This document shows, piece after piece, positions 10,099 to 64,000 of a DNA stretch of 64,000 nt (position 1 is the first letter of the stretch; every line of letters starts with the position of its first letter). Below the pieces are notes generated by a model that worked only from the letters and a program-made list of their open reading frames with translations, did not search any database and was not told where the DNA came from. The position numbers and the translations under genes are program-made. The stretch is from Polytrichum commune (taxonomy: Eukaryota; Streptophyta; Polytrichopsida; Polytrichales; Polytrichaceae). Location: assembly GCA_950295325.1 (NCBI GenBank), contig OX485805.1:7130501-7194500 (forward strand), written 5' to 3'.

Positions 10099-12150
10099 CT
10101 ATGATCCTGGTCCTGGTCCTGGTTCACAAAGGATACGCATGCACGAGGCCAAGAAAACTGCAGAGAATGCCAACAAAACGCTAATCACTGCCACCATGTA
10201 TGCGATCAAAGAAAGTCCAGGTTTATTTCGATTTTTCTCCTTCCCATCAACAGCGTGCAAATTGAAGATGAACTTTGATGGTCCCTTTACTTTTACGTTA
10301 TTGATCCGCTTTCTTAACACCTGCAAATTCAATATGTGTTTGTTATTCGAATATGATGGATCGAACCCCATATCAAAGAAAACACTTACCTAACAAATGC
10401 CAAACCTTAGCTTTAACTTAACTTATTGATATTGAGTATTCAAATAGCATGGACATTGGTTGCAAGCATAATACGAACTAGGAAATGGATGTGGTAGGTG
10501 TCTAGGACAACATATGTCCATTGCCGGATGTATGTAGCAATCAGAAAAAACATTTGGCCTTGCCAATACAAAACTAACAGTTCTTGATGTTCTTACTAGT
10601 CTTTTTCCGTAATGGAAGGCCAAGATATTTTCTTAACATGTTTATTTTCCATTGGATGCAAGGAAGCACTTTATCATCCGTAATCACTGGCCATGCCATG
10701 ATCTAACCACTACATCTAGTAATGGACATGCATGGCCTTGCCATATTAGTTGTAATGGGCACCTACTAATGTTAGCTTGGGATTCATGGTGTCTACATAA
10801 ACTCATCCATTGTGGAGGTGAAAACATAGTGAATTATATTACAGCATGTAAATGACTATTTTGAGAATTTTTACTCCAAAAATAATATAAAAAATTCAAA
10901 TCAATCTAATGTACTCCAATTGTAAAAATCTTGGTTTTATTAAACCCCCTTCATCCATGATGGATAAGTTTACATAGATGTCAAGAACCCCAAGGCCCCC
11001 AACCTACTTGCTAGTACTCTTGTTTGTGGTGGTCAGGCCAAGATATATTATTGACATGTTTATTCTTCGTTGGATAAGAGGAAACGCATTATCATTCACA
11101 ATCGATGACCACTACATCTGGTAATGGTAATGGACATTTGTGGCCATGTCATCAATGAGCACCCAATACCTACCTGCCGCCATCACGGTTGGATAGGTTA
11201 GGCACCTACTAATAGCATGTCCACCCTAGGCTAATCGCTACCCCTTGACAACATAAGGAGTCCCTCTTGATAGGAAAAGTTCATCTCTTTCGAAACTTTA
11301 CAGCTATCGGTAAGGATTTTTCGTCCTAATCATAATAACCTCACCAAATATAATGTATTGCACTTTCGCCCGTTCACTTCATTGCATACAAACAAACCAA
11401 AACTCCTTTCAAAATGGAAACTCTCCCAACAATGTGGGCCAATCGCTGATCCTAGTGTGAGCATCCTGTAAGTTACAATGATGCGCAAGTGAAAAAAGCA
11501 TTCACCTTCAATGAGAGCTTCTCGTTGGCAATGGTTTTCTCCAAGGCCCACTGTGCGGAGAGCTTCTGCACGACTGCACCGATCGTGACGACGGACGCGA
11601 GCAGGGACAATGTGAACGACGTCCACCAGTTGGTGCACCGCAGGACGGCTGCTTGCGCAACGGCCGTGAACACAACGCCCTGGAACACAATGAAGAACCC
11701 GATCAGCTGGTAAATCTCGTTGCGGATGTGGCCACGTTGCGCTTCCTTCACCTCGCTCCGCTTCGTGAACATGTGAAACCCCGCCTCCCACTCCTGAAAC
11801 GCAATATGGAGTTTCGGGTGCTTCCCACTATTGAGCTCCAACAGATTGTTGGCCACTACCTCGGACACGACCAGCTCCTCATCATCCCCTGGCAAAGAAA
11901 GGCCTGTGTCGATCTGAACAGGCACAGAGCCTTCGTCGTTATTGCTCACACCTGATCGTGGCGTTGCAACTGAATCAGCTTCTAAATTTCGACCCCTTAC
12001 TTCAGTGCCGGTCTCCCCATCTGCTGCTGATCCTTCCCTTCTACGCGACCGGACACCCTCTGGCAAACTTTCTCCGTTGAAGCTTGACTGCTGCTGATGA
12101 TATAAGCAAGTGCAAGTGGAACAATGGGCTGCTTCGAGAGTGGGCGCCAT
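10099..12150 (-). CDS. Three-pass membrane protein of unknown function, copy A (two exons)
   Basis: Exon 1 is 11506-12150 and exon 2 is 10099-10320, joined in phase 0 across a 1,185-bp GT-AG intron (donor GTGAAT, acceptor TTTGCAG). The product is about 288 residues. The N-terminal 140 residues are polar and probably disordered. The conserved core starts RNEIYQLIGFF, with membrane segments near residues 148-166 and 178-195 (IVFQGVVFTAVAQ, then SFTLSLLASVVTIGAVV), around a conserved CTNWW. A third segment near 251-274 is in exon 2 (LIAYMVAVISVLLAFSAVFL), followed by CMRILCEPG. The paralogue at 45092-47465 has the same layout, with the intron at the same codon. I know this family only as uncharacterised proteins of non-seed plants. 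No catalytic motif is visible. Confidence 0.8.
10615..10800. repeat. Dispersed repeat family E, copy 1 (in intron of gene A)
   Basis: Blocks AGGCCAAGATAT, ACATGTTTATTTTCCATTGGAT, CACTACATCTAGTAATGGACA and GGGCACCTACTAAT recur in the same order at 11020-11230 and, more diverged, at 23525-23750. Both copies in the intron point the same way. Ends and class are not known. Confidence 0.6.
11020..11230. repeat. Dispersed repeat family E, copy 2 (in intron of gene A)
   Basis: Second copy of the family described at 10615-10800, about 400 bp downstream in direct orientation, with CACTACATCTGGTAATGG and TTAGGCACCTACTAATAG as clear landmarks. Confidence 0.6.
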
Positions 12151-45091: not shown

Positions 45092-47465
45092 ATGGCTACC
45101 ACTGGGGATGTTGTTCGAGTTAGTTCAATGTTGCAACCTGATCATGGCGAGTTGAATGTGGCAGACACAGAGTTGAAGGTGCCAACTGGTTCGATTCCAC
45201 GGGAGTCGACAGTTATTCAAATGCCTCCTGATTCTCATGCAGACGGGCTTCTGAAGGATGATAATACTGAAGCAACCGTGAGCTCGCAAGACCCCGATGT
45301 GATTAATCAAGAAACATTACCTCAAGAAACAGATGCATTGCTTGGGGCCAGTAGGCTAGAGGAGCAGAAAGAGCTTCTCTCAGAAGCTGAAATCCGAAAC
45401 ATCATGTGGATCAAGTTCGGGCCGGAGGAGCTGGAGAGGGTTGATGGTGGTGAAAAACACCTCTTGTACAATGAGGCCCTGGCGCATTGGGAGGCGAAGG
45501 ACAAGCTGTTTGCAACGAGGGTGGAGAAGAAAACGAAGCAGAGCTTGTCGGTCCGCAATGAGATTTATCAGCTGGTCGGATTCTACAGTGTGTTCCAAGG
45601 GGTGTTGCTCACAGCTGTCGCGCAATCGAACTTGCTGCACTGCAACAACTGGTGGAGTGTGTTCACCTTATCGGCGTTGGCCTCCTTTGTCACAGTTTTC
45701 GGTGTGAAACAGAAATTCGAAACCATTTGGGGACTCGAGAAGACCATCGCAACCGAAGATATCTCACGCAAGGTATTATATCACTGCTTCATTGCCATGC
45801 TCTGTACACTGTTATGTTTAGGGGCCCTAAACCCTGAACCTCTGCTCAAAAAAGTGGGCCTCATTTTCCACCAAACGGTGCATCGATCGGGAGTGTGTGG
45901 AATGCCTGGCCTGTTGGAAATGTTTTTTTCCCATCTACTGTAAATGCCCAGGAATTTATAACACAGGATAAATGAGGTCAGGTTTTAAAAGGACTAGATA
46001 ACGAGTGAGAGGAGAGTGGATGACCATTCGCAAAACGGCGAGCCATCCACCTACTCAAGTTGCTTATCAGACATAATTGATCAGCTCGTGGACATAATCT
46101 GGGAGTTATAGATGGAAAAATATGACGAGTTTTGATGACCATTCTGCTCTTGGATGAGCGTTTGGTTATGGTGAATATTGTGGGCCATTTGTAAACAAGG
46201 AAACCGGCATCAAACCCATCAGGGAGATTACTACGGATGCACACTGTATTCCAACTCACAATATTGAACATTGGAGGATTACGTTGTAGGTGTACCAATG
46301 CACTATGGATTCTAATGTACCTGTCCAGGTGCTTTCACATGTAAGAACCCTTGAGCTATAGCCCCCGGGAGGTATGTGCATTTCCGAGTTGTACTCAGTC
46401 AAAATATTGATGTCTTAGAGCATCTCCACTCATGGAGTTGCAAATGGGCCTCTTCCATTGGCTTTTTAGGTCTTTAAGGCCAGAGTCACTGCATGCCACA
46501 TCCCATTTCTGAATCCCATAGAGGTTTATCCAAATTCCGAATTGTTGATCAATTATGGACCGGATAACCAACAAGAGGAGTGGATGACGAGCCGTGGAAG
46601 CATCCCGTCATCCTCGTACTTGAGCTGGTTTTTTATCATAATTGATAAGCTCATGGACAAAATATGGGAACTATGGATGATGTTGCATCTCCATGGATGA
46701 AAAATTGGGGCTTGGTAACCCCTTCGCTCTTGGATGAGTGATCGATTATGTCACATAGGCCCTATAAAAAGAAGCCTTCGGCTCACTATACTTGGGCTCA
46801 CTATCACTAACATGAGTCGTCCTTTGAGACCTTGCCCTAAAAAGTCTAAAAGCCAATGTAGAGAGGGCTGCATCTTTGTGGCTCCAAGAGTGGGGTAATG
46901 TAGCCGAAGGGGTAGCATTGAGATGAGTGGTTATGGGTCAACCTATAGATTGACTTTGTGTAACCCCAAAATCTATGCTTCAAATTTGTAGCAATTTCCA
47001 TATTCATAATTTAAAATAACATAAAATTGCATTCTCTTTAGAATTTGTTTCTCTTTGCAAGAAAATAAATTCCCCGCTATTACTCCTGCTAAATCAGGTG
47101 CAAACCCTCTTGTTTTATTGGTAATGGATGCCTCAACCTTATCTTACTGATGATAAGGATCCTATGTGTAGAGTTAATTGAATAGGTTCACTAATGGTAT
47201 GTTTTAATTTTATTTGCAGCAAGTTGTAAAGTGGCTCTCGTGTCTAAGAATTAAAGGGCCGGAATTCTCATTCAAGGAGCATGCCCAGGATGGTGAGTTG
47301 TCTGCAGACAAAGGGGGTTCTTCACCTCGAAGGAATGGCAAAAAATTGAAGTTATCCATCTTTGCTGTAATTGTTGTGTTGATCTTATTCTCAGGTACTT
47401 TTTTGGTCGCCATCCGTCAGATATTGTGCAACCCGGGCCATTCCTTGTTGCCAAGTAACCGTTGA
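45092..47465 (+). CDS. Three-pass membrane protein of unknown function, copy B (two exons)
   Basis: Exon 1 is 45092-45772 and exon 2 is 47220-47465, joined in phase 0 over a 1,447-bp GT-AG intron (donor AAG|GTATTA, acceptor TTTGCAG). The product is about 308 residues. The first 150 residues are polar and acidic. The core begins RNEIYQLVGFYSVFQG near residue 155, with membrane segments about 160-178 and 190-205 around HCNNWW. A third is near 271-292 (LSIFAVIVVLILFSGTFLVA), then IRQILCNPGH. It matches copy A (10099-12150) across both exons, including intron position, the NWW motif and the terminal ILC-PG. The two are inverted relative to each other. If the intron were retained, a stop follows about 57 codons later. 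Location is probably a membrane; the activity is unknown. Confidence 0.85.
46005..46195. repeat. Direct repeat in intron of gene B, unit 1
   Basis: Blocks GGAGAGTGGATGAC, GAGCCATCC, CATAATTGATCAGCTCGTGG and GCTCTTGGATGAGCG recur in order at 46570-46770. The inverted-repeat element at 46412-46890 overlaps the second unit. Confidence 0.6.
46412..46890. mobile_element. Inverted-repeat MITE-like element in intron of gene B
   Basis: The left part (TTAGAGCATCTCCACTCA, CCATTGGCTTTTTAGGTC) pairs imperfectly with the right part near 46835-46885, whose complement reads AAGATGCAGCCCTCTC and ACATTGGCTTTTAGACTTTT. The GAGCATCTCCA start is common in plant MITEs. Exact ends and target duplication unclear. 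Confidence 0.5.
46570..46770. repeat. Direct repeat in intron of gene B, unit 2
   Basis: Second copy of the unit at 46005-46195 (AGGAGTGGATGACGAGCC, CATAATTGATAAGCTCATGG, GCTCTTGGATGAGTGATCG). Confidence 0.6.
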
Positions 47466-49783: not shown

Positions 49784-50360
49784 ATGGGGGGGGGGGGGGG
49801 TATTTACCTACTATAATGGATTATAAGGCATGTTAATTTTTCAAAATAATGGTAAATTGCTTTGATTACTAGCACCCTATGGGTAATACTAAATTATTGA
49901 ATGATTAAATTAAAAGTACCTTATATTCATTACATGTAGAAAATCCCCAATTCCTCAAAGTCCTTAAAGTGTATGATAAACCATAAGCCCCATTCACCAC
50001 GTTGAAGCTTTTCCCAATGACAAAAGAATTATGAAAACCTTATCTTTAAGTCATTAGGGGGATGATTTCACAAGTGATTTAATCCACCCCTCAATTCCAT
50101 AAAATCATTGTCCAAAATTATACACCTGAATTGCAAGGTGTATGATTTTTCATAACTAGCCCCTCATTTCCATGGTACTTTATATGTATCACTTAGGTAA
50201 TTTATGATGTTATGTCAAATGCTATATTATATGTTATAATGTTTCACACACCCATAACACCCTATACTATATGTACTTACTTTCCAATTTGACCCAAAAG
50301 TAATGCATTAGACACTATATATTTTATTGCACGTAGTTCTATGTTATTTGCTATACTAAA
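49784..50360. repeat. Repeat related to the G-run element at 62459-63781
   Basis: After a run of 15 Gs comes TATTTACCTACTATAATGG, ATAATGGTAAATTGCTTTGA, TAGCACCCTATGGGTAAT and later TGTCAAATGCTATATTATAT and ATTGCACGTAGTTCTATG. These match the reverse complement of 62500-63720. The ends are not visible in this copy. Confidence 0.6.
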
Positions 50361-50578: not shown

Positions 50579-50900
50579 ACTAATCACAAGCATGCACTAA
50601 TCTTCCTAAAATCTATGGTAAATGAGCATAGAATTAATTGTAAGTTATGAATTTAGTCACTTAATGGGGATATTAACTAAAATGAGCCAATTGGGCCATT
50701 ATGAGACAATTCGTACCAATGGGAACGTGCATTGGGAACGTGGTTCACGAGTAAATATCCGTGAATTGCCATCATTGACAAGGTTTAGAACAAGAGGAAG
50801 GTCATCAACATAGACTAGGGCACTATTTCATGCACATTGGTGTATATATATAAGCTAAAATAATGCTTATTCTAGCCCACATAAAAACTTAGCCCAGTTG

Positions 50901-51150
50901 TCACCATGGGTGTTCACTCGTGACCAACCAACACCCCGCAACAGATGAGCCTAGTATATCCATAATACAACATAAGTCGATACCACTAAGGAACAACCAT
51001 GCGCATGTCAACAACTGTATGCAAATATAATGGGTCTAATCATAAAAGCTATCATGGGCACTTAATACTACTCAGAGAATACAAATACATCTAACCACGA
51101 GTGAACGCCCGTGACCAATCAACGCCATGCAACACACGATGCAAGATCCA
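50901..51150. repeat. Two degenerate copies of the palindrome with shared flank
   Basis: CACCATGGGTGTTCACTCGTG (50902) and CCACGAGTGAACGCCCGTGA (51096) are imperfect versions of the palindrome found downstream. Both are followed by the same flank (CCAA-C-AACRCC, then CAACA, then ATCCATAAYAC), so the pair is a longer direct repeat about 195 bp apart. Confidence 0.65.
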
Positions 51151-51276
51151 TAACACATGAAGGAAGGTCTACATGTCATATCCGACTACACAAATGAGGG
51201 TCAAAAAATCATTTGATTGAATCATAGATGCCACAGTGGGCACAAAAAATGTGAACAAAGTATATGAATTGTTGTA

Positions 51277-51298
51277 TCCACGGGTGAACACCCGTGGA
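51277..51298. repeat. Palindrome family P (isolated copy)
   Basis: Perfect 22-nt inverted repeat, core CACGGGTGAACACCCGTG, just downstream of the minus-strand frame ending at 51323. Confidence 0.95.
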
Positions 51299-51322
51299 AA
51301 ATCTATCACCATAAAGGTCCGG

Positions 51323-51907
51323 CTATCTACAAGAGGAGTATGAATCCTTAATCATTTTCAACATCTTGTCATGAGGTTGTCTTTGAGCTATAGTACATTG
51401 CTTGCGCTTGACTTCTTCAAGCCGTTTTTTCTCCTCCATCAAAACTGTAGCTTCTCGAAGTTGTTTCACCCTTGCAGCCACGTAATCAGACATGGATGAG
51501 GTGGTATTGGGTGAACTACACCTCCAACATCCAGAACTATTTCCCGAGCCCGTGGGCTCATTGGGGTGAGTGGTTTGGAGAGAAAGGTGTCTCTTCACCC
51601 GAGCGCGTGTGACCGGACCCGCAACATCGACCGGAACAGCCTCCTCAACCGCGACCGGAACAGCCACCGCAACCGCGAGCGCAACATCGTGTGTTTGGAG
51701 CATATGTGTCTACCACAACAAACGACAAATTGATATTAGAATCCCTGGGATGAAACACAACTAAAAAAATTGGGATTCATGTGGAAAATGAATTACCTTA
51801 GGGCATGGAGATGTCACTTCGGCGAAGTCGGCGTTAGCATCCGGAGGACGTTGTCGACATGGTGGACTGGCAATATAGTTCTTAGGTCGCGTTTGGAATG
51901 GGGAATG
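51323..51907 (-). CDS. Partial gene model, two exons, Ala/Val-rich then basic coiled segment
   Basis: Exons are 51797-51907 and 51323-51709, joined in phase 0 by an 87-bp GT-AG intron (AAG|GTAATT to TGGTAG). The upstream acceptor (CCTAACAG at 51908-51915) implies at least one more exon further upstream. The translation has a low-complexity VALAVAVAVPVAVEEAVPV stretch, then a charged, probably helical part (ARVKQLREATVLMEEKKRLE, then EVKRKQ). It lies downstream of the H3-tail gene on the same strand. It could be an alternative end of that gene or a separate gene. I recognise no domain. Confidence 0.4.
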
Positions 51908-52128
51908 CTGTTAGGATACAATAACATAAGAGTCCATGGAAGAAGGACATTATGTGCAAGAGGAGCCCGTCCGTTGCCCTTTAGTAAAGATGAACATGTT
52001 CAAAACATATGAATTATAGCCGACTAAGTCCTACATATTAAAATTCGCTATGACAACCATAATTCCCAAAAACACAACTAACATTGTCCAAGTGGCCTGA
52101 TACATTCATTGAATCAACTACCACATTG

Positions 52129-52148
52129 CCACGGGTGAACACCCGTGG
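52129..52148. repeat. Palindrome family P (3' flank of H3-tail gene)
   Basis: CCACGGGTGAACACCCGTGG, perfect 20-nt palindrome about 245 bp beyond the stop of the last exon. Confidence 0.95.
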
Positions 52149-52391
52149 GACAATGCCAGACATTCACTGTGGTCGGAAATAGTCGGGTATTCTCTAACAC
52201 CGCAGTGTTGCAAAGTAGTAGACTCCCAGTGAGATACATTCATGACCATGACATGTTTGCATGAAGAAAATCCACAAAACCAAAACAAGTTTCAAATGAA
52301 GTTGAAAGGCAACAAAGTTTCAGATCCACTCATTTCAAATACAATGTACCGATAGTGCAAATGTGCACTATAGGCGGCCCCAATAGGGAAT

Positions 52392-53174
52392 CTACATTAA
52401 CATCTGAGCCTCTGGAACCATACGGGCAGAAGTCAGTATTTTATGTCTAACTAATGATTGCTTATAAATCAGAGAACTTGGCAGCTCTAGATTGAAGGGT
52501 CCCTGTCCTGATGGATAAGGGTTGCTCCCCACAAAATCTGGCACATACTGTTGAGAACTCAAGAGCCTTTGCAGGTAACTATGCAGAGTATCCAAGCTTT
52601 GGTTTGACATAAATGGTACAGGGTTAATGTAGCTCCCAGGAGGGTTTGGGATGCATTTGTAAGGGGAGTCATCAACAAGTAATGTAGTCCTATGACTGGG
52701 TTGCTTCGTATGCGGCACTGGATGCGTCCGGCTCCACTCAAAAAATGCGCACAGGTCTTTCATGAAGAAGCTTGAATCAGCATTCATAGGACTAGGAAGA
52801 ACTTGTCCTCTCTCATCCTTCAGAGTGTGACACAATTCTTGCCCAAACACATACTCTGGATGTCTACAACCATTGAAGAAGTGCCGGACAATTGGCTGAA
52901 GATTCTTCATAAGCTTCGACGACCAGATGACAACATGGAAGTTTGAGAGAACAAAACGCAGAAAGCGTCCCAGTCCTCTCCTAGGTATGAGGGCACTATA
53001 TGGGAGAAAGAGTGGAACCAACTCCCCAGTTATCTGAGGGCTATGTTGTGATTCAAGAGTCTTCCTGGTGTTGACATTGTCGCACTTTGTTAACCTCACC
53101 AGGATCCCGTTCACATCCAGCACTAACCATATCTTCTCTCTCCGATGGACAACAGTGGTTGGAGAGGTGAGGAT
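52392..53174 (-). pseudogene. Last exon: FCP1/NIF-type HAD phosphatase-like domain
   Basis: Phase-0 exon of 261 codons after the acceptor CGCCAG. It carries HAD motif I as LDVNGILV, where the usual DxDx(T/V) has Asn for the second Asp. Motif II is IWSSK, and motif IV is LLVDDSP followed by a Pro-rich SYINPVPF. FCP1/NIF-type domains dephosphorylate proteins such as the RNA polymerase II tail; several plant relatives I recall also read DLNG. With the second Asp changed, activity is doubtful. The frame itself is open, unlike exons 2 and 3. Confidence 0.7.
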
Positions 53175-53434
53175 CTGGCGATGACAAAATTGAAAGTCAT
53201 TGTAAAGAATTTCTATCTAAGGAAAAAGTATATTCTACATGATTTTTATCGAATGAAACAACACATTGGGTACACATGAGTATGCAAGATAAAAGAATGC
53301 CTCCACATTTATGGATTAGTTTTGCGAGATCGAGGAAAATATCGTACCGAAGGTGGTATTCCGGCAGTGGCTGTATGACCTGTGACCACATGCACACATG
53401 ACTTATGAGATCCACACGCTCAAACCCATAATCT

Positions 53435-53456
53435 CCCACGGGTGAACACCCGTGGG
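53435..53456. repeat. Palindrome family P (intron 6)
   Basis: Perfect palindrome, core CACGGGTGAACACCCGTG, 56 bp upstream (minus-strand sense) of the small exon 53348-53379, in the intron following exon 5. Confidence 0.95.
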
Positions 53457-53534
53457 CACAATATCAAAAGTCCCTTATATAAATATTACTCGAGAGATAA
53501 CAATTTGTATGGAAATTGAAAAGTATAAACAGGT

Positions 53535-53562
53535 GGTCCCACGGGTGTTCACCCGTGGGACC
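53535..53562. repeat. Palindrome family P, 28 nt
   Basis: Perfect 28-nt palindrome with TT centre, extending the core by GGTCC and GGACC. It is 32 bp past the donor of exon 5, in the same intron as 53435-53456. Confidence 0.95.
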
Positions 53563-55045
53563 AATTGCATTCAAATAACACTATATATGATACCTTGAGC
53601 TTGGCTTAGGGGGGGATCCCCACCATGTGCAGGGTCGTCATGAGAACTCGGTGGAATGACATCCCGTTCTGCCGCAACCAACACCTGTTGCAAAGACACT
53701 TTTAGAAATCTTGACGAGTTTGCTTCCACCGCCAAACACAATATAGCATTGGAAAGGGAGTATGTATTACCATTTCGGACGATGCCGGTTGACCCTCAGC
53801 AACACGTTCGACATGAGGGCTTGAGGACTCCGCAACTGCAACATTGACTTCCCTCCTTGGAGACTCTGGCACTCCAGTAATGTCAATGATCTCCAACGTA
53901 GAGTCCACAACACTGCCGGCTTGAGCGGCCGAGGACCCCGCGAATTGACCTCGTTCATCACGATGTTTGGGAGCTTCGAACGCTGTCCATCTCTTTCTCA
54001 TTTTCTTTAATGCAGCGGCATGAAGAATATGTTTCACCTTCACTGCTTCACAAAACGCTGGTGTGGAGAGATAAGCGAACATCTTGTGATAGTCGTACGA
54101 CGTGTACAAATGCGCAAGATTCAATCGCACGTTCTCGGGCACATCTACCAAGTATTTGTCCACAAATGGGGCAAAATGCACCTTGTCCTTCCCATCCGAT
54201 TCCTTGCCCATGTCAGGTCTCCCAGCAAACACCGGGTGAGGGTCATCAACAAAGTTGAGTTTCACTCTGTTGTACCCAGGCTTCCCATAATCCTCATCCT
54301 CGGAATCATCCGTCATGTAGTCCGCAAACGTCCCCCGAACCCGATGTGGAACTCGATCTCTCACCTTCACCCTCACGTCTAGTTCTACGCATCTTTCGGG
54401 CACATCGTCATCACTATCCAAGCATATGACTTCGGTTCGAATAACCTCCTCTGCTTCATTGGATGGTGCCGCTACAGTAGGCTCTTCTGCAACCACAACA
54501 CCAGGTGAATCACGATTTGATCGCCCATGTCCTAGCACCTCGAGAACGGCAGCGGCAACGTCCTCAACAGGTGAGCTGACGTTCAAATCTGTGTTTGTCC
54601 CTTCAACATGCACAGCTTCAGACATGATTGCATCCCGCGGAACATCCGCTTGGCCAGATTCAACCTCGCGATAAAGACCAGAATGCTCCGTTGCCTCCGA
54701 AGACCGCGAGTGATCTCCAACTCTAGCAGGACGTAGAGATGACCTTCCCCTTCGAGGAGCTTTCATTTTCTTTCTTGCAGTCGGTTTCGATGCAGACCTT
54801 GCAGCAGGATTAGCTGACTGCGGACGCTCATCCTCCTCATATTCTTCCATAGGTTGAACATCTAGTTGTTCTTGACTTCGTCTAGATGTGTCAAACTGTG
54901 CAAACCCGCGGCCGGGTGTAGATGGGATCCCAGACGAGAAAGATCCCACAGGGTGATGGACACTGTGCTCGGCTTGTGGACGACCAACTTCCTCTAAGTT
55001 GGAAGCATCCTCTTGCCGCTCCTCCTCACCCTCCCCCTCCCCTTC

Positions 55046-55069
55046 CCCCACGGGTGAACACCCGTGGGG
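55046..55069. repeat. Palindrome family P inside coding exon 4
   Basis: Perfect 24-nt palindrome read in frame on the minus strand as PHGCSPVG within the acidic region. Its length keeps the frame open. Confidence 0.9.
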
Positions 55070-55197
55070 AACCTGCTCCGGGGACATGGCCTCCAAAGAG
55101 GCCTCCGCCATGGCTGACGCCTTGTAATTGAAGGCCTCCTCCTCCACCTCTGCCATGACCTCAGCCATGGCCTCCGCCAGTGCGTCGTCCATGACCA

Positions 55198-55340
55198 CCT
55201 CTTCTTCCTCTTCCTCTTCCTCTTCCTCTTCCTCTTCGTCGGCCACTTCCTCTTCCTCCGCAGACTCCCCTAGGACAACAACTGGGTCATCTTCCTCCTC
55301 CACCTCTTCCTCCTCCTCCTCCTCCTCCTCCTCTTCTACG
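55198..55340 (-). repeat. Trinucleotide tract encoding poly-Glu in exon 4
   Basis: Runs of GAA/GAG codons (TTC/CTC on the plus strand) interrupted by VADEEEE and DDPVVVLGES, a low-complexity acidic tract prone to length change. Confidence 0.9.
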
Positions 55341-55727
55341 TCCTCTTCATTTATGTCATTCGCACGCTTTCTTCCAATCTCGCGCTCAATGATGGAATCC
55401 ACATCGATACGCCCTTCTTCCTCTTCCAAATCCTGGGCAGCGAATTTTCCTTCCTCATTCCACCTTTGTATGCTCCAGTCAACTGCGGCAATCATCTTCG
55501 TCTTCGCCACCTCTAGCATCTCTGCCGGCACAATATTCAACACCTTCATACCCAATGCCTGCAAAAACCAAGGCATGAGATAAATAACTTCTCAATCAAA
55601 TTAGTCTACATCCAAAAGCGAATAGAATTAAACCAATAGTCCCAACTATTTGTCTACCAACTAATTGTCAGGAAAGCTATCGAGAAGGTGGCTATCAACC
55701 AGGTGGATATAAAGCAGGTGGATGTCT

Positions 55728-55755
55728 AGGCCCACGGGTGTTCACCCGTGGGCCT
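55728..55755. repeat. Palindrome family P (intron between exons 3 and 4)
   Basis: Perfect 28-nt palindrome, core CACGGGTGTTCACCCGTG with AGGCC and GGCCT beyond it, in a 299-bp intron. Confidence 0.95.
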
Positions 55756-56831
55756 CCCAACCTGGTTTATGGTTAGGTTATCCAAAACACCATCCAAACC
55801 AACGATAATATTCAGAAATTCAAGAACCACTTAGGGGAAAAGATGCTCATTACTTACATGTGCCACTATGTGCGCCTTATTGCCTCCACAAATATTGAGA
55901 AAAGAAGACCCCTCAAGACATGAAGGCTTGATGATATCTATGTAGGTCTGCATCCTCAACTCCCCCTTGAATAAACACTTGGCCTCCTCATTGGAATACG
56001 CCCTTTTCACTGAATAACGTTTATATCGCCCCGGGTCATGGACGTCCAACATCTTCCGGCCTTCACAGAGCCGCACAGCCACCTCCGAACTTGATTCGCC
56101 CCTATTGGGAAAAATGCAGTTTGTAACCCGAAGAGCATTTGATTCGAAGAAGCAATCGCGAGATGCAATTTTCTCCTCTTTAGTGCCATGGTATAAGGCG
56201 TCACAAAATCTGGCGTTGCTCAGAAGGTGCGCCTTCAGCACATTGTGAATGAAATGCCGATCCGGATATTCTGAAATCACAGTCCACAATTGGGGGGAGT
56301 TTAAAATGCCTGGGAAATCACGACGAAGACCTTGCAGAGTGGAATCCATACACTCCTTCACACGCCCCCCAGTGTCTTTTCCCGCCTGGACTCCGGGGAG
56401 AAACCTTGTGTCCATGTACGCGTGCAGGACTGGTGCAAACACTGTCCCACCACTGATCTTGTAGTTGTTGTCAATAGACAACACGACATGCTCGGGTGTA
56501 ACCTCGGTGTTATGTGTACCTAAAATGTTCCTCACTCCTTCTTTAAACCGGTCCGGAATAGGTACTCTCTTCCTTGTGGGGTTCATAGCGCCAAGAAGGT
56601 ACTCCGCTCCAAGCAAGTCTACAAGTCGTTATCGCTGGAGTTTACCAAACTTATTCGCATACTTCCATACTCTCCAACAATCACGATCAATGGTCTCTTT
56701 CTGATCGACGTGGACAATGTACAATGGAGTCGGGTCTAGACACTGTGCCATCGCGATATAAGTTTCATTCTTCTTTTTCTTGTTCATCGCCCAATCGCGC
56801 ACAGTCTTCAAGGTATGTCGAGGGTGCTCCT

Positions 56832-56917
56832 CTCCATCTCTGGTGGTGAGGATTTGATTCGCTGCCATGTCGAGCTCCATCTCTGGTGGTGAGGATTTGA
56901 TTCGCTGCCATGTCGAG
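56832..56917. repeat. 43-bp tandem duplication in exon 3
   Basis: Two identical 43-bp units starting CTCCATCTCTGGTGGTGAGG, at 56832-56874 and 56875-56917. 43 is not a multiple of three, so it breaks the frame; removing one unit restores an exon of 421 whole codons. Identity of the units suggests a recent event or an assembly error. Confidence 0.9.
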
Positions 56918-57246
56918 CTCCATCTCTGTCAAGCCCCGAAATTGTTTCAGGTCGTTATTGACCACCTTCTTCGACTTAAACCCCTTTGTCTCTTTCATAA
57001 GAGCTTCGGTCTTCGGGTCTACATAGTCACCACTCTCGTAATCCTTGAATATCCGCTCCCACTTCCTCCATATGTCATCGCCCAATACAGGCAAGACGTG
57101 CTCCATGATTAGGTTGGTCTCCTTCTCCACGCGGAACGTCCACATGACGCACGTAATAAATGCCTGTATCAAACACCGGCAATGTATCAATCTCTATGAA
57201 AAAAACCTCCATGTATTTCCAGCAATCACCAACAACATGATAGTCG

Positions 57247-57268
57247 CCCACGGGTGAACACCCGTGGG
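57247..57268. repeat. Palindrome family P (intron between exons 2 and 3)
   Basis: Perfect 22-nt palindrome, core CACGGGTGAACACCCGTG, in the 150-bp intron 57164-57313. Confidence 0.95.
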
Positions 57269-58671
57269 AGTCACAGAAATGAGAAATTCAAAAGTCACAG
57301 GTTTGAAAAATACCTTCCACTTCTTAAAAGCTTCCGTGTTGCTGGCCTTCTCGCGTACAGTTCGGTCAGGTCTTCCTCGCCTAATCCAGGTCTTCCTAGT
57401 GTGCTGAATGCACTCCGTAAATGACGGAAAGTGCTTCCTGTACTCACTATCCAGGTTCAGAACACCAGAGAGGTGGAACAGAGGGTCGTCATCACCTTCA
57501 GGGGCCCAGACCACATTACAAGGCCATTTCGAGAAAAACCTCTTCACCTCATCTGTGCTGCTAAGGTCATTCACATACTCGAGACAGGCTGCTAACGTGT
57601 GCTGTCCATTTACCACGTGGAACGATTTGTCCTTCACCTCCTCAAAATTGAATGGTTTAGTTCGCCTATCCGAAGGAACGATTGTCAAGAAGTTGGGATG
57701 AATCTTCGGAATGAAGGCATAGTTGAATAACCATGTCTTGATCTCCTTCAAATGCGCCTCGGATATGGGTCGGCAATTATACCCTGCATCTCGAATATCC
57801 ACACCCTTTGGTACTTGTTCTTGAACAACTCCATATCCATCAACCTGTCTCCAACCGATTTGTCTGGAGGCCCATGCATTGATCGCTTGGGAATCTTCTC
57901 GAGTTCAAGAAATGGACTATCCTCAGGTGTTTTCTTCTTGCCTCTCTTGGAGACAACATCCTGGCCGTCAGTGTCTTCGACAATCAGTGGTTGTCCTTCA
58001 TCGGGTCTCGTCTTCTTCCTAGACGAGGTGGCACGTACATCAGCAAGATCCTTCCTCTTGCCATCGCGGATTTCCTTCTTCTTCAAAGATGCTTCCAACC
58101 TTGCCGCCTTTGCCTCCTCAACTATAACCTTCACTCGTGCTAGAGCAGACTTGTAGTCCTGCTCGATCATTACTGACCTCTCCTCCACGGACTTCGTGTG
58201 CACATTGGTCTCGCAATATAGTATACAATAGGTGAGGAAATCACCGTTCAATAAGCGGATGTTCTCTCCCTCATTGTTGAGCTCTTCATTCACATCCGCA
58301 TATGAGAAAGTCTCCACGAGTGCTGCAACCTTGAAGTCCTTCTTCCGTTCAGGCGACTTGCACATTATCAATACCCGGCTCCCATCCGCTTGAATGTCCA
58401 GTACATGTTTTGCCTTCATGTACTTTCTCCATGTGGAATTGGGCCCAGTCCTCGTGTAAAGCGAGAGCACCGTTGTCTCTCCGAAACCACTATACTGCAT
58501 GAACCATTGCAAATCTGGGCCCAAAACTTCAACATCGTAATTCACCCGTCTGCCCACACCTCCCGATACTGCAGAAGACAATGCACATGTAAGTACTCAG
58601 CATAGCCCAATATTATCACGGATTCTATAACTCATATAACATTGACGTGCACATAGGTATTGTGGTTATAC

Positions 58672-58702
58672 CTTTACGGGCTGTTTGCTTAGTTCTTGCC
58701 AT
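58672..58702 (-). other. Coding exon 1: histone H3 tail peptide
   Basis: ATG at 58702 opens a 31-nt exon reading M-A-R-T-K-Q-T-A-R-K, identical to residues 1-9 of histone H3 after the initiator Met. The donor AAAG|GTATAA leaves phase 1; exon 2 (acceptor TTCTGCAG, 103-bp intron) supplies the other two bases of the next codon and continues VSGGVGRR, resembling H3 STGGKAPRK. The phase match supports the join. Exon 1 is too short for a random match to be attractive. Confidence 0.8.
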
Positions 58703-58860
58703 CTCAATTCAAATGAGAGAACACTTCGACACCTCTATGTACCTGAATGAAACACCAACTGTCTATCACATGTTTATGTCTAAAACCTTCAAATGCTTAC
58801 AGAGACACACCAAATTTGTCTACATAGAAAATCAAAAAGACATTTATCAAACAAAATCTC

Positions 58861-59035
58861 CCACCCAGGTGAGTGCAAAGGCTCACGGGTGAACACCCGT
58901 GGGCACTCCTAACCAGGTGAGGGCAAAGGCCCACGGGTGAACACCCGTGGGCACTCCTAACCAGGTGAGTGCAAAGGCCCACGGGTGAACACCCGTGGGC
59001 ACTTTCAACCAGATGAGGGGAGAGGCCCACGGGAG
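58861..59035. repeat. Tandem array 1 of palindrome-centred 48-bp units
   Basis: Three and a half units, each CCAGGTGAGTGCAAAGG, palindrome (core CACGGGTGAACACCCGTG), CACTCCTAA. The palindromes are at 58882-58903 (one arm mutated), 58929-58952 and 58977-59000; the fourth stops after the half site GCCCACGGG at 59033. All share the AA centre. Confidence 0.95.
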
Positions 59036-59246
59036 GGCTGATTTTTCACAAAGTTTTAGCTCGTCCACGTCCAAAAACCTTGAATTGAAAGGCAAAAAAA
59101 ATCTCAACCCGTCCCGAAACCGGTAATATCTATACAAGTTAAGTCTCCCTCAAGTTGGTACAAAATTAGGAAAAAAGAACAGAAAAAAACGAAGATGTCG
59201 ACATGTGACCACGGACATGTTAGGGACCTTGTGAAGAATCACCACT

Positions 59247-59412
59247 GCCCACGGGTGTTCACCCGTGGGCCTCTCCACCTTGTGGGTGCAAAAGCCCACG
59301 GGTGAACACCCGTGGGCACATTCAACCGGATGGGGGGAGAGGCCCACGGGTGTTCACCCGTGGGCCTCTCCACCTTGTGGGTGCAAAAGCCCACGGGTGT
59401 TCACCCGTAGGC
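59247..59412. repeat. Array 2 of palindrome-centred units, mixed centres
   Basis: Palindromes at 59247-59270 (TT centre), 59294-59317 (AA), 59336-59371 (TT; extended to 36 perfect nt) and 59389-59412 (TT; one mismatch), separated by TCCACCTTGTGGGTGCAAAA or TTCAACCGGATGGGGGGA spacers. The linkers resemble those of array 1 in alternating orientation. Confidence 0.95.
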
Positions 59413-59837
59413 ACTTCAAATATCCACTTTCAGATAACCGCGTTCACACTAACAGAAAAACTGGGATTTATGTAATGGACACTCACCAGGGTTCTTTGGG
59501 GGGACCATGTCAAAATTCTTTCAATACGAATGTGGTTTCCTGCACAAAACAAAATACAAGAGCTATTGTTTCAAACTATGCCTACATGTGCAATACATTC
59601 ATACTCTCAAACATCTCAATAGGTAAATTCTGCCCTCACATTCTTCTTGCAATCTGGTCTCACATTTTTATGAACATAACCTCTTGTCATTCATCTTGCA
59701 TTCTGATTTGAGCATTTTTCTCACATTTCAATCAACTCTTCACACCCAAGTATCACACAACTCACATGCAAATCTCTAGTATTTCTGGGTTTGAAATTCT
59801 TCAAGCAATTCAAACCCTAGTGCACCAGAAATTTGAA

Positions 59838-59912
59838 ATGCAAGCAAGAGGAAGAATGCATGCAAGAGGAACAATGCAAGCAAGAGGAACAATGCAAACA
59901 AGAGGAAGAATG
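59838..59912. repeat. 18-bp tandem repeat, four units
   Basis: Units of AATGCAAGCAAGAGGAAC with small changes, purine-rich on the plus strand. Confidence 0.8.
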
Positions 59913-60189
59913 AAATTGAAAGAGAAAGCAAAAGAGTGAAAGAGAGTGCAAAACATTGAAAGAGTTCAGAAACTTACAAGCTTGTGGGTTCTCAATTCTT
60001 CATGATTGGAACTTCCCTCCACTTGCTTCAAGGTCGCCTTCCTCTTCTCCACATCTCACCTCTACCACATGCTGGATTGAGCAAGAAACAACTATCCTCA
60101 CCAAGAAACTATCACATATTCCAAGAAAATGCACACTGAATCTATTCCAGGGTTTTCTTGAGAAGAGAATCAAGACAAGGAGTACAATA

Positions 60190-60365
60190 ATTGAATGAAG
60201 AGAAGAGAATGAAGAGAATGAAGAGAAGCAAAGCAAGTTCAGAATTGTGGGAGAAGAGTTTTGCAAGAGCATTCCAGAAAAGTGGAGAGTGGTGAAGGAA
60301 AGAGAGAAAGAATTGGGAAAGGAGAATGAGAGAGAGGGAGAGAGAGGGAGAGAAAGGGTGCGAAA
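60190..60365 (-). promoter_or_regulatory. C/T-rich probable leader or promoter-proximal region of the H3-tail gene
   Basis: On the minus strand a nearly pure C/T tract (CTCTCTCCCTCTCTCTC near 60330-60357) is followed by CTT/CTC repeats. Such tracts flank transcription starts in many plant genes. No TATA box was identified. Confidence 0.35.
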
Positions 60366-60566
60366 TGTTGCCATAATGACGAGTGGGTGGAAGTCGCATG
60401 TCACATAATGCCTCATTAGTACGAAGGGACATGATGGAGGAAATCTCGGGACGCGAAGAGATATGCGATTTGGCGGCTAAAGTACGTTTTGAGGAGGGAT
60501 GGGCGGTATGATGGTATTAGGACGTAGCGATAAACCATTATTGGTACTTTGTAAGGTTCGCCCTAT

Positions 60567-60790
60567 TGGTATGATAATTATTAGTACTTAGTAAGATATC
60601 TAAGTATTAGTGAGATAATTATTAGTACTTAGTAAGATATCTAAGTATTAGTAAGACAATTATTAGTAATTAGTAAGATAACTGCGTATTAGTAAGATAA
60701 TTATCAGTACTTAGTAGGATAACTCATATTAGTAAGTTCATTATTAGTACTTATTAAGATAACTCATATTAGTATGATTGATATTATTTT
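60567..60790. repeat. 41-bp tandem repeat, about five units, then TAGT-rich DNA
   Basis: Units such as GATAATTATTAGTACTTAG+TAAGATATCTAAGTATTAGT decay rightward into simple TAGTAA/TAGTGA-like sequence to about 61080. Confidence 0.85.
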
Positions 60791-61084
60791 TATTGTTAGT
60801 AAATTGTCATATTCACTCTATTGTTAATATTAGTAATATTAGTAATATTAGTAAAAATGATTTATAGTGATTAATAGTAATTACCAGTAATAGTAACTAA
60901 TAGTAACTAATAGTGACTAGTAGTGAATAATAGTGAATGCTAGTGCTTCATAGGTCATTATAGTCATTAATAATGTTTAATAGTGATTAATAATTATGAA
61001 TTACTAATGGCTGACTAGTAGTGATTTATAGTAATAATAATAATCACTTTCAATCGATAAATGGTAATAGTATTGATAATGCTT

Positions 61085-62450
61085 AAAATAGGTTCATATT
61101 ATAACATAGATTCCATACTTTAACATTCTACTCTGTAACATAGATTCCTATTATAACATACCAAAGTCAATTGCACATTCTCATAATATGCGTGTAAGAT
61201 GCTCAATCGCGCTTGACATCAAGCATAGCTATGATTTCCAATTCCTTATTGATGAAGTCGTAAGCATCCATAATAGGCCCACTTTCACCTTAGCCCATGA
61301 ACTCAAGTTCGATTGTTCTCTTGTTTTCTCTTGGACTATGAACCATTAGAGTTCCAAGAATTCAAAATTTTAAATATAACATATATTATGGCAACGAAAA
61401 TAATGGCATGACATAAGAAGCGGCCATGGATACTTATAAAGCATCAAAGTTGCTGGCCATTAGAAATCATCACACATAATACTTGCCGCGCATAATGGGT
61501 ACATGCCCACCTCCCATACCCAATAAACCCTACTGGATAGGTAAATACTACTAGGAATGAACATAAATCGTTTAACATAAAAAAAAAAATTAGGCAATTT
61601 TAGCATAAATCTCTTTTTGGCTTTGCCCTCACCCCCATGCATTGAGAATCACTTCATAACTTGGTTTTAAAGTCATTCTCCTAGCGTTTATTCTTGTAAT
61701 TGTATCTTAAGTTATATTATTACTAGATTCATTATGTGCTCTTCATTGGCTAAGATTTTTGACGTTCATAGTCGACATCTAATATGAACACACATGCTTG
61801 CGATAACACAAATTCAAGAATGACCTTCTCAAAGGCACTAGAGTTATCATTTATCCCACTCAAATTTTTGGGTGGGGGTTGGTTGTTTTGCATGCAACAC
61901 ATATGGACTTAGCCAAAATTAGCGGTCAACTAAAGAGAAAGGACTTTGGAAACTAACATATTGAAGTACAAGGTGATATGCAAGGCCGCGGGAGACATCG
62001 GAATCGAAATCATATTGAGAGGATGACAAAGGAGGTGGCCAACGAGTGGGCCACATCAAGCACCACATGAATCTCGAGCAATATTAAGATTGCATCTCCA
62101 TAACCATACCTCATCGATTAAAGGGAATTCTAAATGATGGCATAAGATTTACGGAAATGAGAACTTGAATAGGAAATGGGTCAAACACTTCAATGAATGA
62201 ATTCATGTAAATCATGTGTACTCTATGAATTGAATGGTTTGTGGAATCTCGTAAAGATACTTTAGCGAGGAGTAGGTTAGGAATACATAAAGTCTTGAGA
62301 CTCTTTCAAATTGAAATATTGAAATATAATTGAATAGAGGAAGAATAATACGTAGGTCATTCAATCCATGAAAGAGATAAAAATAACTCCATAAGTTATT
62401 AGAGATGAGAATGATTTACATGCATGAACACTTAGCTTTGACATTAATGT
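61085..62450. other. Intergenic, no gene recognised
   Basis: AT-rich, no supported gene or element. Confidence 0.4.
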
Positions 62451-62458
62451 CTTAGGGA

Positions 62459-63781
62459 CTCGGGGGGGGGGGGGGGCACTGGCAAAAAATGTAGGAACTA
62501 CGTGCGATAAAATATAGGGTCTTGTATAAAAATTTGGCGTAAAATTTGTAAAATTATTAGATGTAGTATAGGGTGCTTTGGGATTGTGAAACATGATTAT
62601 ATGTAATATAGCATTTGACAAAACATGATTAAATTACCTAAGTGGTACATATAAAATAGCATGGACAAAAAGCGATAGTTTCAAAAATTAAATACTTTGC
62701 CACCAAAATATGGCATGTTCTATATAGGAAGGGTTCAAAAGATAAGGGTGAAGGTTGGTACTAAGTGGGGCAATTGTTGGCAACCCATTGACTTGATGAA
62801 ACGTGCAGTCCAGAACGGAAATAGAGAGACGCTCTTCCCAACTACTATGGCTTACCTCCATTGGTTAAAAAAACAGCTGGGTCTCAACAAATATAAGTAT
62901 GTTGAGAGTGATTGTGTGTGGGTTGATGTGGATGCTATTCTCTCAACAGTGTCTCTAGTAACAATGAATCAACTAGCAAAATCTACACCTTAGATGAGGT
63001 AGATGCAAACTCATTGAATGAGTTCATTTCAAATAAAAAATAAAACCTATTAAATTTGTACTATCTCACACGTGTGGAGATATAATTTGGAGAAAGGGTT
63101 GAATGATCATTAGTATACCTTGAAATCTGTAGTAGCCATTTCAGTTCGATTACCCTCATATCTCCCACATGTGTAAATGGTAGCCTAGCTAGTTTAGGTG
63201 GATTTTGCTTGCATGGCGTGGGATTTTCTACCAATGTGTAGGATTGGAAGATCAAGGCATCAATTGTAGGGCTTCTGCAAACCTTGTAAATGTGACTTTG
63301 AGACACATGTGGCTGGCCTGTTCCCTAAGACCTCAAGGTTTCTAACTGTGTTATCCAACACAACTTTCATTCGTTGGCTCGTGTTGCTTAATGACATGTA
63401 ATTGCAATCTTTTGTTGTTATTGTTTAGTGTTTTGCTTTGCCCGGACTTCAGTGTGACCCTGAACCCTAAACCCTAGTAAATGTTTGTTTCTCTTACTTT
63501 GTACACGTGCTTCTAACGAGAATTCTACTGTATCATACACTTTAAGGAATGGGGGCAATCAGGGGGGAAAAATTGCATATAAGTAATATAGGGTACCATA
63601 AAATCAACCATCCAAGAATTTATAATTACCAATAGGGTGCAAATAATCACAACAATTTACCATTATTTCAAAAATTAGCATCCCTTATAATCCTTTCTCA
63701 TAGGTAAATAGCCCCCATTTTAATAGATCATTATCGCAGGTGTATGCAAAATATACAAGGGAATGCCCCCCCCCCCCCGAG
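62459..63781. mobile_element. 1.3-kb element with G-run/C-run terminal repeats and 8-bp duplication
   Basis: Left end CTC followed by 15 Gs (62459-62476); right end 13 Cs followed by GAG (63766-63781). CTTAGGGA flanks at 62451-62458 and 63782-63789, an exact 8-bp duplication. A reversed relative lies at 49784-50360. Inside is a 98-codon plus-strand frame (62697-62993: VKVGTKWGNCWQPIDLMKRA) that I do not recognise; it may be captured gene sequence. The 8-bp duplication suggests a hAT-like mechanism, but the ends are unlike usual hAT ends. Confidence 0.7.
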
Positions 63782-63789
63782 CTTAGGGA

Positions 63790-64000
63790 ACATCAACTTG
63801 AATTCTAAAGGCACTGACTCACTTAAGAATTATTGGACAAGGATATCATATTGAGATTGGAAATTAGTAAACATATGATCACAGATCCTCAACATAGTTC
63901 ACATGCCAACCCATACCCCATTGTATGCCAGACTATCTCTTCATATGTGAACGCTACATGAGGTATAACTTAGAGCCATGTCATGATGATGGATGAGTTC
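63790..64000. other. Window end, no gene recognised
   Basis: Short AT-rich flank; nothing recognised. Confidence 0.4.

Follow-up and report, generated by a model that had tools for sequence, protein, structure and literature searches.

An H3-like N-terminal tail, very probably under selection, in a DNA transposon of the moss Polytrichum commune

Non-histone proteins that carry an H3-like stretch, with possible engagement of the enzymes and readers of histone H3, include influenza NS1, SARS-CoV-2 ORF8, EZHIP and others, and most known cases of such histone mimicry come from viruses and host regulators. Sequence-specific anti-silencing is known from VANC of the VANDAL transposons of Arabidopsis. 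Here, we describe a 64,000-nucleotide stretch of Polytrichum commune (contig OX485805.1, positions 7,130,501 to 7,194,500 of assembly GCA_950295325.1; the whole stretch is referred to as the window) holding, on the minus strand, a gene that opens with MARTKQTARK and lies within a DNA transposon. Like the mimics named above, its predicted product is a non-histone protein with an H3-like stretch; unlike them, it matches the first nine residues of H3 at the N-terminus itself, and the match is conserved across several transposon subfamilies. Our main conclusion is that this H3-like tail is very probably under selection within a mobile element.

The closest described transposons, VANDAL elements, combine a DNA transposon with an accessory gene, VANC (PMC5735166; PMC10398659). 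VANC21 motifs crowd the introns of VANDAL21 and the region 5' of VANA21, and are C-type or T-type according to the subgroup (PMC5735166; PMC10398659). The moss element shares with them the pairing of a DNA transposon and an accessory gene, as well as arrays of short motifs within introns and 5' of its genes; these noncoding arrays differ in type between subfamilies, as in PMC5735166. It differs in having a 22-bp palindrome, a presumed DUF7869 transposase and a predicted H3-tail accessory protein, and we have not filed it as a VANDAL.

The start of the gene is laid out as follows.
58672..58742, minus strand: exon 1, 71 nucleotides (nt), with a 40-nt leader containing a stop codon, the ATG at 58702 and MARTKQTARK at 58702-58672
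58569..58671, minus strand: intron 1, 103 nt, GT...CTGCAG
57314..58568, minus strand: exon 2, with VSGG..., a candidate PH-like domain of PH/PTB/FERM-F3 type near its start, a long helix and an NGQHT (candidate ParB/Srx-like) region

Re-reading the minus strand bore out the original prediction of a 31-nt exon for MARTKQTARK followed in phase by VSGG: positions 58702-58672 are ATGGCAAGAACTAAGCAAACAGCCCGTAAAG, i.e. MARTKQTARK plus one base, and exon 2 continues from 58568 as VSGGVGRRVNYDVEVLGPDLQWF, so that the protein stretch after the 103-nt GT-AG intron is VSGGVGRRVNYDVEV. Because an in-frame stop lies directly 5' of it in the window copy, the ATG of exon 1 is a plausible start codon, and such a stop stands 1-3 codons upstream in all five subfamily representatives, which places the H3 peptide at the predicted initiating N-terminus; with Met removed, the mature protein would start at Ala1 of the tail. 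The tail peptides considered are ARTKQTARKVSGG and ARTKQTARKVSGGVGRR (the A7 and T7 forms). Exon 1 is probably 71 nt in full, with a kept 3' splice site before 58742: the acceptor TYATTCAG/GT was matched by pattern in 51 of the 54 copies that retain the exon, and a TACTAAC-like branch point was found in intron 1 of all 54 with a permissive pattern. The tail exon is predicted to be spliced and translated. Given a Met, the exact nine residues would follow by chance with p about 8e-12 under the amino-acid composition of the family; the window holds 3093 ATGs on both strands.

The gene had been proposed to be non-histone beyond its tail, which holds in that scans of exon 2 and of the blocks after it gave no Pfam histone domain at E up to 1 and 10; the exon lies not in a single host gene but in one of many transposon copies. 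The 407.8 Mb assembly includes seven large contigs of 42-78 Mb, a number that would fit n = 7 in a moss. A search of it with exon 2 returned 66 matches at 100 to 52 per cent identity, with some on each of the seven; these are best-scoring candidates only and some are fragments of one copy. Many have a reading frame that stays open for about 482 codons, compared with 282 and 277 codons in the window copy and in L015. The early stop in exon 2 of the window copy arises from the absence, near 57802, of a stretch that relatives have; the frame is broken there. The window copy is damaged, and the finding therefore rests on the family and not on this copy.

Exon 1 is retained in 54 of the 58 copies examined (L015-L072, of which L016 is the window copy). 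No homologue with an unrelated, non-H3 first exon was seen among these 54, and a recognisable exon 1 was not found in the other four (L034, L069, L070 and L071), although in L071 the exon is visible with a one-base deletion. The 54 peptides comprise 37 ARTKQTARK, identical to the N-terminus of H3, 13 ARTKQTTRK, 2 AKTKQTTRK, 1 ARTKQTSRK and 1 ARTKQIARK; A1, T3, K4, Q5, R8 and K9 are invariant and T6 is retained in 53. For representatives of five subfamilies, chosen without stops across the compared part, exon 1 shows no non-synonymous and 1-5 synonymous differences in all ten pairs. In exon 2, compared over about 240 codons, the same representatives have a synonymous divergence (dS) of 0.55-3.1, at least 1.8 in seven of the ten pairs, and a non-synonymous divergence (dN) of 0.10-0.26. 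At the exon 2 rate, the 20.3 non-synonymous sites of exon 1 would be expected to show 4.3-5.3 changes between copies of the T group and those of the C group, two groups that are set out with the palindromes below. With all copies taken together, exon 1 has 15 distinct codon changes by hand count, of which 11 are synonymous (p 0.0001 under equal rates), as are 9 of 11 with codon 7 excluded (p 0.0001), both tests being approximate in that they assume independent changes. Introns of distant subfamilies have no visible relation by eye, with TACTAAC-like branch points retained. Selection on the peptide is thus indicated, because exon 1 lacks non-synonymous differences between the five representatives while the subfamilies are mostly near saturation at synonymous sites.

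At A7, a change to T occurs in exon 1 of 15 copies (e.g. L017, L029, L045, L052 and L061), recurs across several subfamilies and is in some copies a G to A change at a CAG site; it may stem from the decay of methylated CHG cytosines, or T may be a second state that the tail accepts. At S10, the replacement by V would remove phosphorylation beside K9.

The reading of the exon as an H3 mimic is supported, as the peptide is kept despite divergence at synonymous sites, in introns and over the remainder of the protein; the other suggestion made at the outset, capture from an H3 gene, is not supported for a present-day gene. Of the host H3 genes, eleven were read from their start (L001-L011), and all lack an intron at K9/S10: in L009 and L010 the coding sequence is interrupted after K23, in L011 after about R49, and in L001-L008 not at all. 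At codon level, the tail exon matches them at 24/30 nt at best. An ancient capture of an H3 exon is possible. Histone H3 and the transposon protein have ARTKQTARK and GG at positions 12-13 in common; the transposon protein differs in lacking a detected histone domain, in V at S10 and in the exon end at K9. The likeness of VSGG to H3, which had been held to argue against chance, stands for the GG, which 16 relatives retain out of the 17 with a listed start that extends to it; S10 itself is replaced by V. Of 67 relatives, one (P0005, from a metagenome, 71 per cent identical) shows the tail exon, opening with MARTKQTARK and reading through the intron; the other 66 do not show it, their predicted starts lying in or after the sequence adjoining exon 2. 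As to the host genes, C4 carries 13 of the 14 full-length H3 matches, with nine in the interval 31.2-32.4 Mb, and a divergent H3-like fragment on C3 (L012) begins MACSKQTARKSTGGKAPHK.

The mobile element carrying the gene has these parts.
50664..64000, minus strand: transposon copy, running about 11.7 kb beyond the right window edge
50664..50686, no strand assigned: terminal inverted repeat at the element 3' end, ATGGGGATATTAACTAAAATGAG
L085:6850-7995, minus strand: DUF7869 gene, whose transcription runs away from the H3-tail gene

The element is a DNA transposon. The 3' boundary at 50664 is common to three compared copies, the inverse arrangement of the terminal repeat stands at the 5' end of copies A, B and the window copy (L087), and all three have 23-bp inverted termini, with one mismatch at one end of copy A, and 4-bp target duplications. 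Copy A is 24,961 bp long with the duplication ATCC and copy B 25,073 bp with CACA; the window copy has CTTA on both flanks and, by arithmetic from its boundaries, spans about 25,046 bp (C3:7181164-7206209). At the 5' end of copy A, on the strand opposite to the H3-tail gene, lies a DUF7869 gene (4.2e-47), whose product is the presumed transposase; its position in the window copy would fall about 9-10 kb past the right edge. DUF7869 was not named in the literature searched. No match to a MULE family was found among eight copy A open reading frames scanned, the whole 25 kb not having been searched for one.

Arrays of a 22-bp palindrome lie within the element.
58881..59414, no strand assigned: palindrome array between exons 0 and 1, CCCACGGGTGWWCACCCGTGGG, with six exact cores and one degenerate
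51277..53562, no strand assigned: further palindromes at 51279, 52130, 53437 and 53540
55049, 55733 and 57249, no strand assigned: other palindromes, from a core pattern scan

All 13 cores in the window lie within the element, at 51279-59392, and none elsewhere in the window. The full palindrome with any two central bases occurs at 644 sites in the genome, and its reversed control at 0. Of these, 50 distinct sites were listed, all of them on C1; the spans of four T-group copies, about 0.16% of that part of C1, contain 35, those of two C-group copies 0, and 15 lie elsewhere. In the subfamilies at 65-67 per cent identity the palindrome is CCCACGGGCGNNCGCCCGTGGG, both arms differing together. The T-group loci hold 255 T/T palindromes and no other type, and the C-group loci 27 C/C, 2 mixed and 0 T/T, counts that are not independent, as some loci overlap and sites are counted twice. 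None was found in the short loci L061, L065, L067, L069 and L070, the 3' pieces L076 and L078, or the H3 loci. In copy A, one cluster of sites lies in the intron that precedes exon 1 and another close to the putative start of the DUF7869 unit; the 12 kb between the two clusters contain no exact core.

Upstream of the tail exon lies a second possible start.
59978..60100, minus strand: putative 5' untranslated exon, marked at its donor end (59978, CTT/GTAAGT) from the splice signal
59487..59539, minus strand: exon 0, with the ATG at 59508 and MVPPKNP plus one base, ending in phase 1

The terminal sequence of exon 0 is ATGGTCCCCCCAAAGAACCCTG, and an MxPPKxP-like exon with a GTRAGT donor is present in all five subfamily representatives (one reads MSRPKKT). 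The pattern was matched in 23 and not in 6 of the 29 near copies that have exon 1 and sufficient sequence upstream. Exons 0 and 1 end in the same phase: joined to exon 2, exon 0 reads in frame as MVPPKNPVSGG...; joined to exon 1, it meets a stop after MVPPKNPGT in the window subfamily and an early stop in the other four. Because a non-H3 start exon of the same phase lies upstream, a tail-less isoform is possible, and we infer that the N-terminus has two alternative forms, one carrying the H3 tail and one lacking it.

Tentatively, we propose that the H3-tail protein gathers on the element's own palindromes and that its tails serve as decoys for H3K4/K9 enzymes and readers, helping the element to escape silencing. 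The transposon, of about 25 kb, would encode a presumed DUF7869 transposase and a large protein starting ARTKQTARK-x-x-GG; the rest of this protein, or a partner, may bind the palindromes as a symmetric dimer, and many free H3 tails would thereby be placed on the promoters and introns of the element. There, the tail would be a decoy, as substrate or as ligand, for the host's enzymes and readers of H3K4 and H3K9 and, by analogy with VANC, could weaken silencing. The second in-phase start exon may allow the protein to be made with or without its tail. In this scheme, DNA binding, reader binding and anti-silencing are all predicted activities. More doubtful is the fuller version, in which an optional H3 exon on a palindrome-recognising protein would form a switchable weapon, its false tails absorbing or misdirecting writers and readers of H3K4/K9 so that the element stays unsilenced. 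If true, a selected, exact H3 N-terminus in a DNA transposon would unite histone mimicry and anti-silencing; as a natural H3-tail decoy, its variants A7T and S10V would show which contacts matter, and evasion of H3K9 silencing by a transposon becomes directly testable in a moss.

Other roles for the tail would fit part of the same evidence. It is unlikely, though conceivable, that it is a targeting or recruiting tag, bound by host readers or methyltransferases that perhaps methylate K4/K9 and that steer integration or bring chromatin proteins to the transposition complex, with silencing not countered. The conservation of exon 1 in 54 copies and ten of ten subfamily pairs would be the same, and exact N-terminal placement suits PHD-type readers, which need a free Ala1; a tag alone, however, leaves the palindrome arrays and their symmetric difference between subfamilies unexplained. 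Less likely still, exon 1 would be a regulatory or leader exon, the real N-terminus being MxPPKxP from exons 0 and 2 and MARTKQTARK rarely made. Exon 0 is indeed conserved in all five representatives, in the same phase and in frame with exon 2, and exon 0 joined to exon 1 meets an early stop; yet the changes in exon 1 are mostly synonymous in precisely the ARTKQTARK frame, and the frame of its own ATG, closed directly upstream by a stop, also joins exon 2.

We consider it improbable that the tail is a silencing handle, attracting the H3K9 methylation machinery as a form of copy-number control or exploited by the host. Retention of R8 and K9 in all 54 copies would suit such a handle, but elements seldom retain a handle for their own silencing, and numerous near-identical copies with long open frames point to recent activity of the family. 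Convergence on a short basic N-terminus, e.g. for nuclear import, with an incidental likeness to H3, is very improbable: the peptide is basic, but import needs any basic peptide, and here Q5 is retained in 54 and T6 in 53 of 54 copies, together with exact identity over nine N-terminal residues and GG at 12-13 in 16 of 17 relatives.

Downstream of exon 2, further coding blocks were read.
56765..57190, minus strand: coding block, with a 43-bp tandem duplication at 56832-56917 in the window copy
55831..56616, minus strand: coding block; in copy A, a single open frame spans the counterparts of this block and of 56765..57190
53702..55576, minus strand: acidic low-complexity coding block, in which one palindrome is read in frame as VPHGCSPVG
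52392..53123, minus strand: NIF/CTD-phosphatase-like block (PF03031, 4.9e-9), of the same or a separate gene

The NIF/CTD-like block recurs in copy A (L073:7941-8672; PF03031, 1.4e-9). It lies near the element 3' end, and its first HAD motif reads LDVNGILV, with Asn in place of the usual second Asp.

Beyond the element, inverted similarity to its 5' part was seen at 50169-50351 (against 62482-62665) and at 49795-49927 (against 63585-63716), perhaps from a related or nested element. Elsewhere in the window, the open reading frames 11473-12150 (minus strand) and 45092-45943 (plus strand) share stretches by eye, e.g. Q.VG...VFQGV..TAVAQ, and are apparently two members of one gene family.
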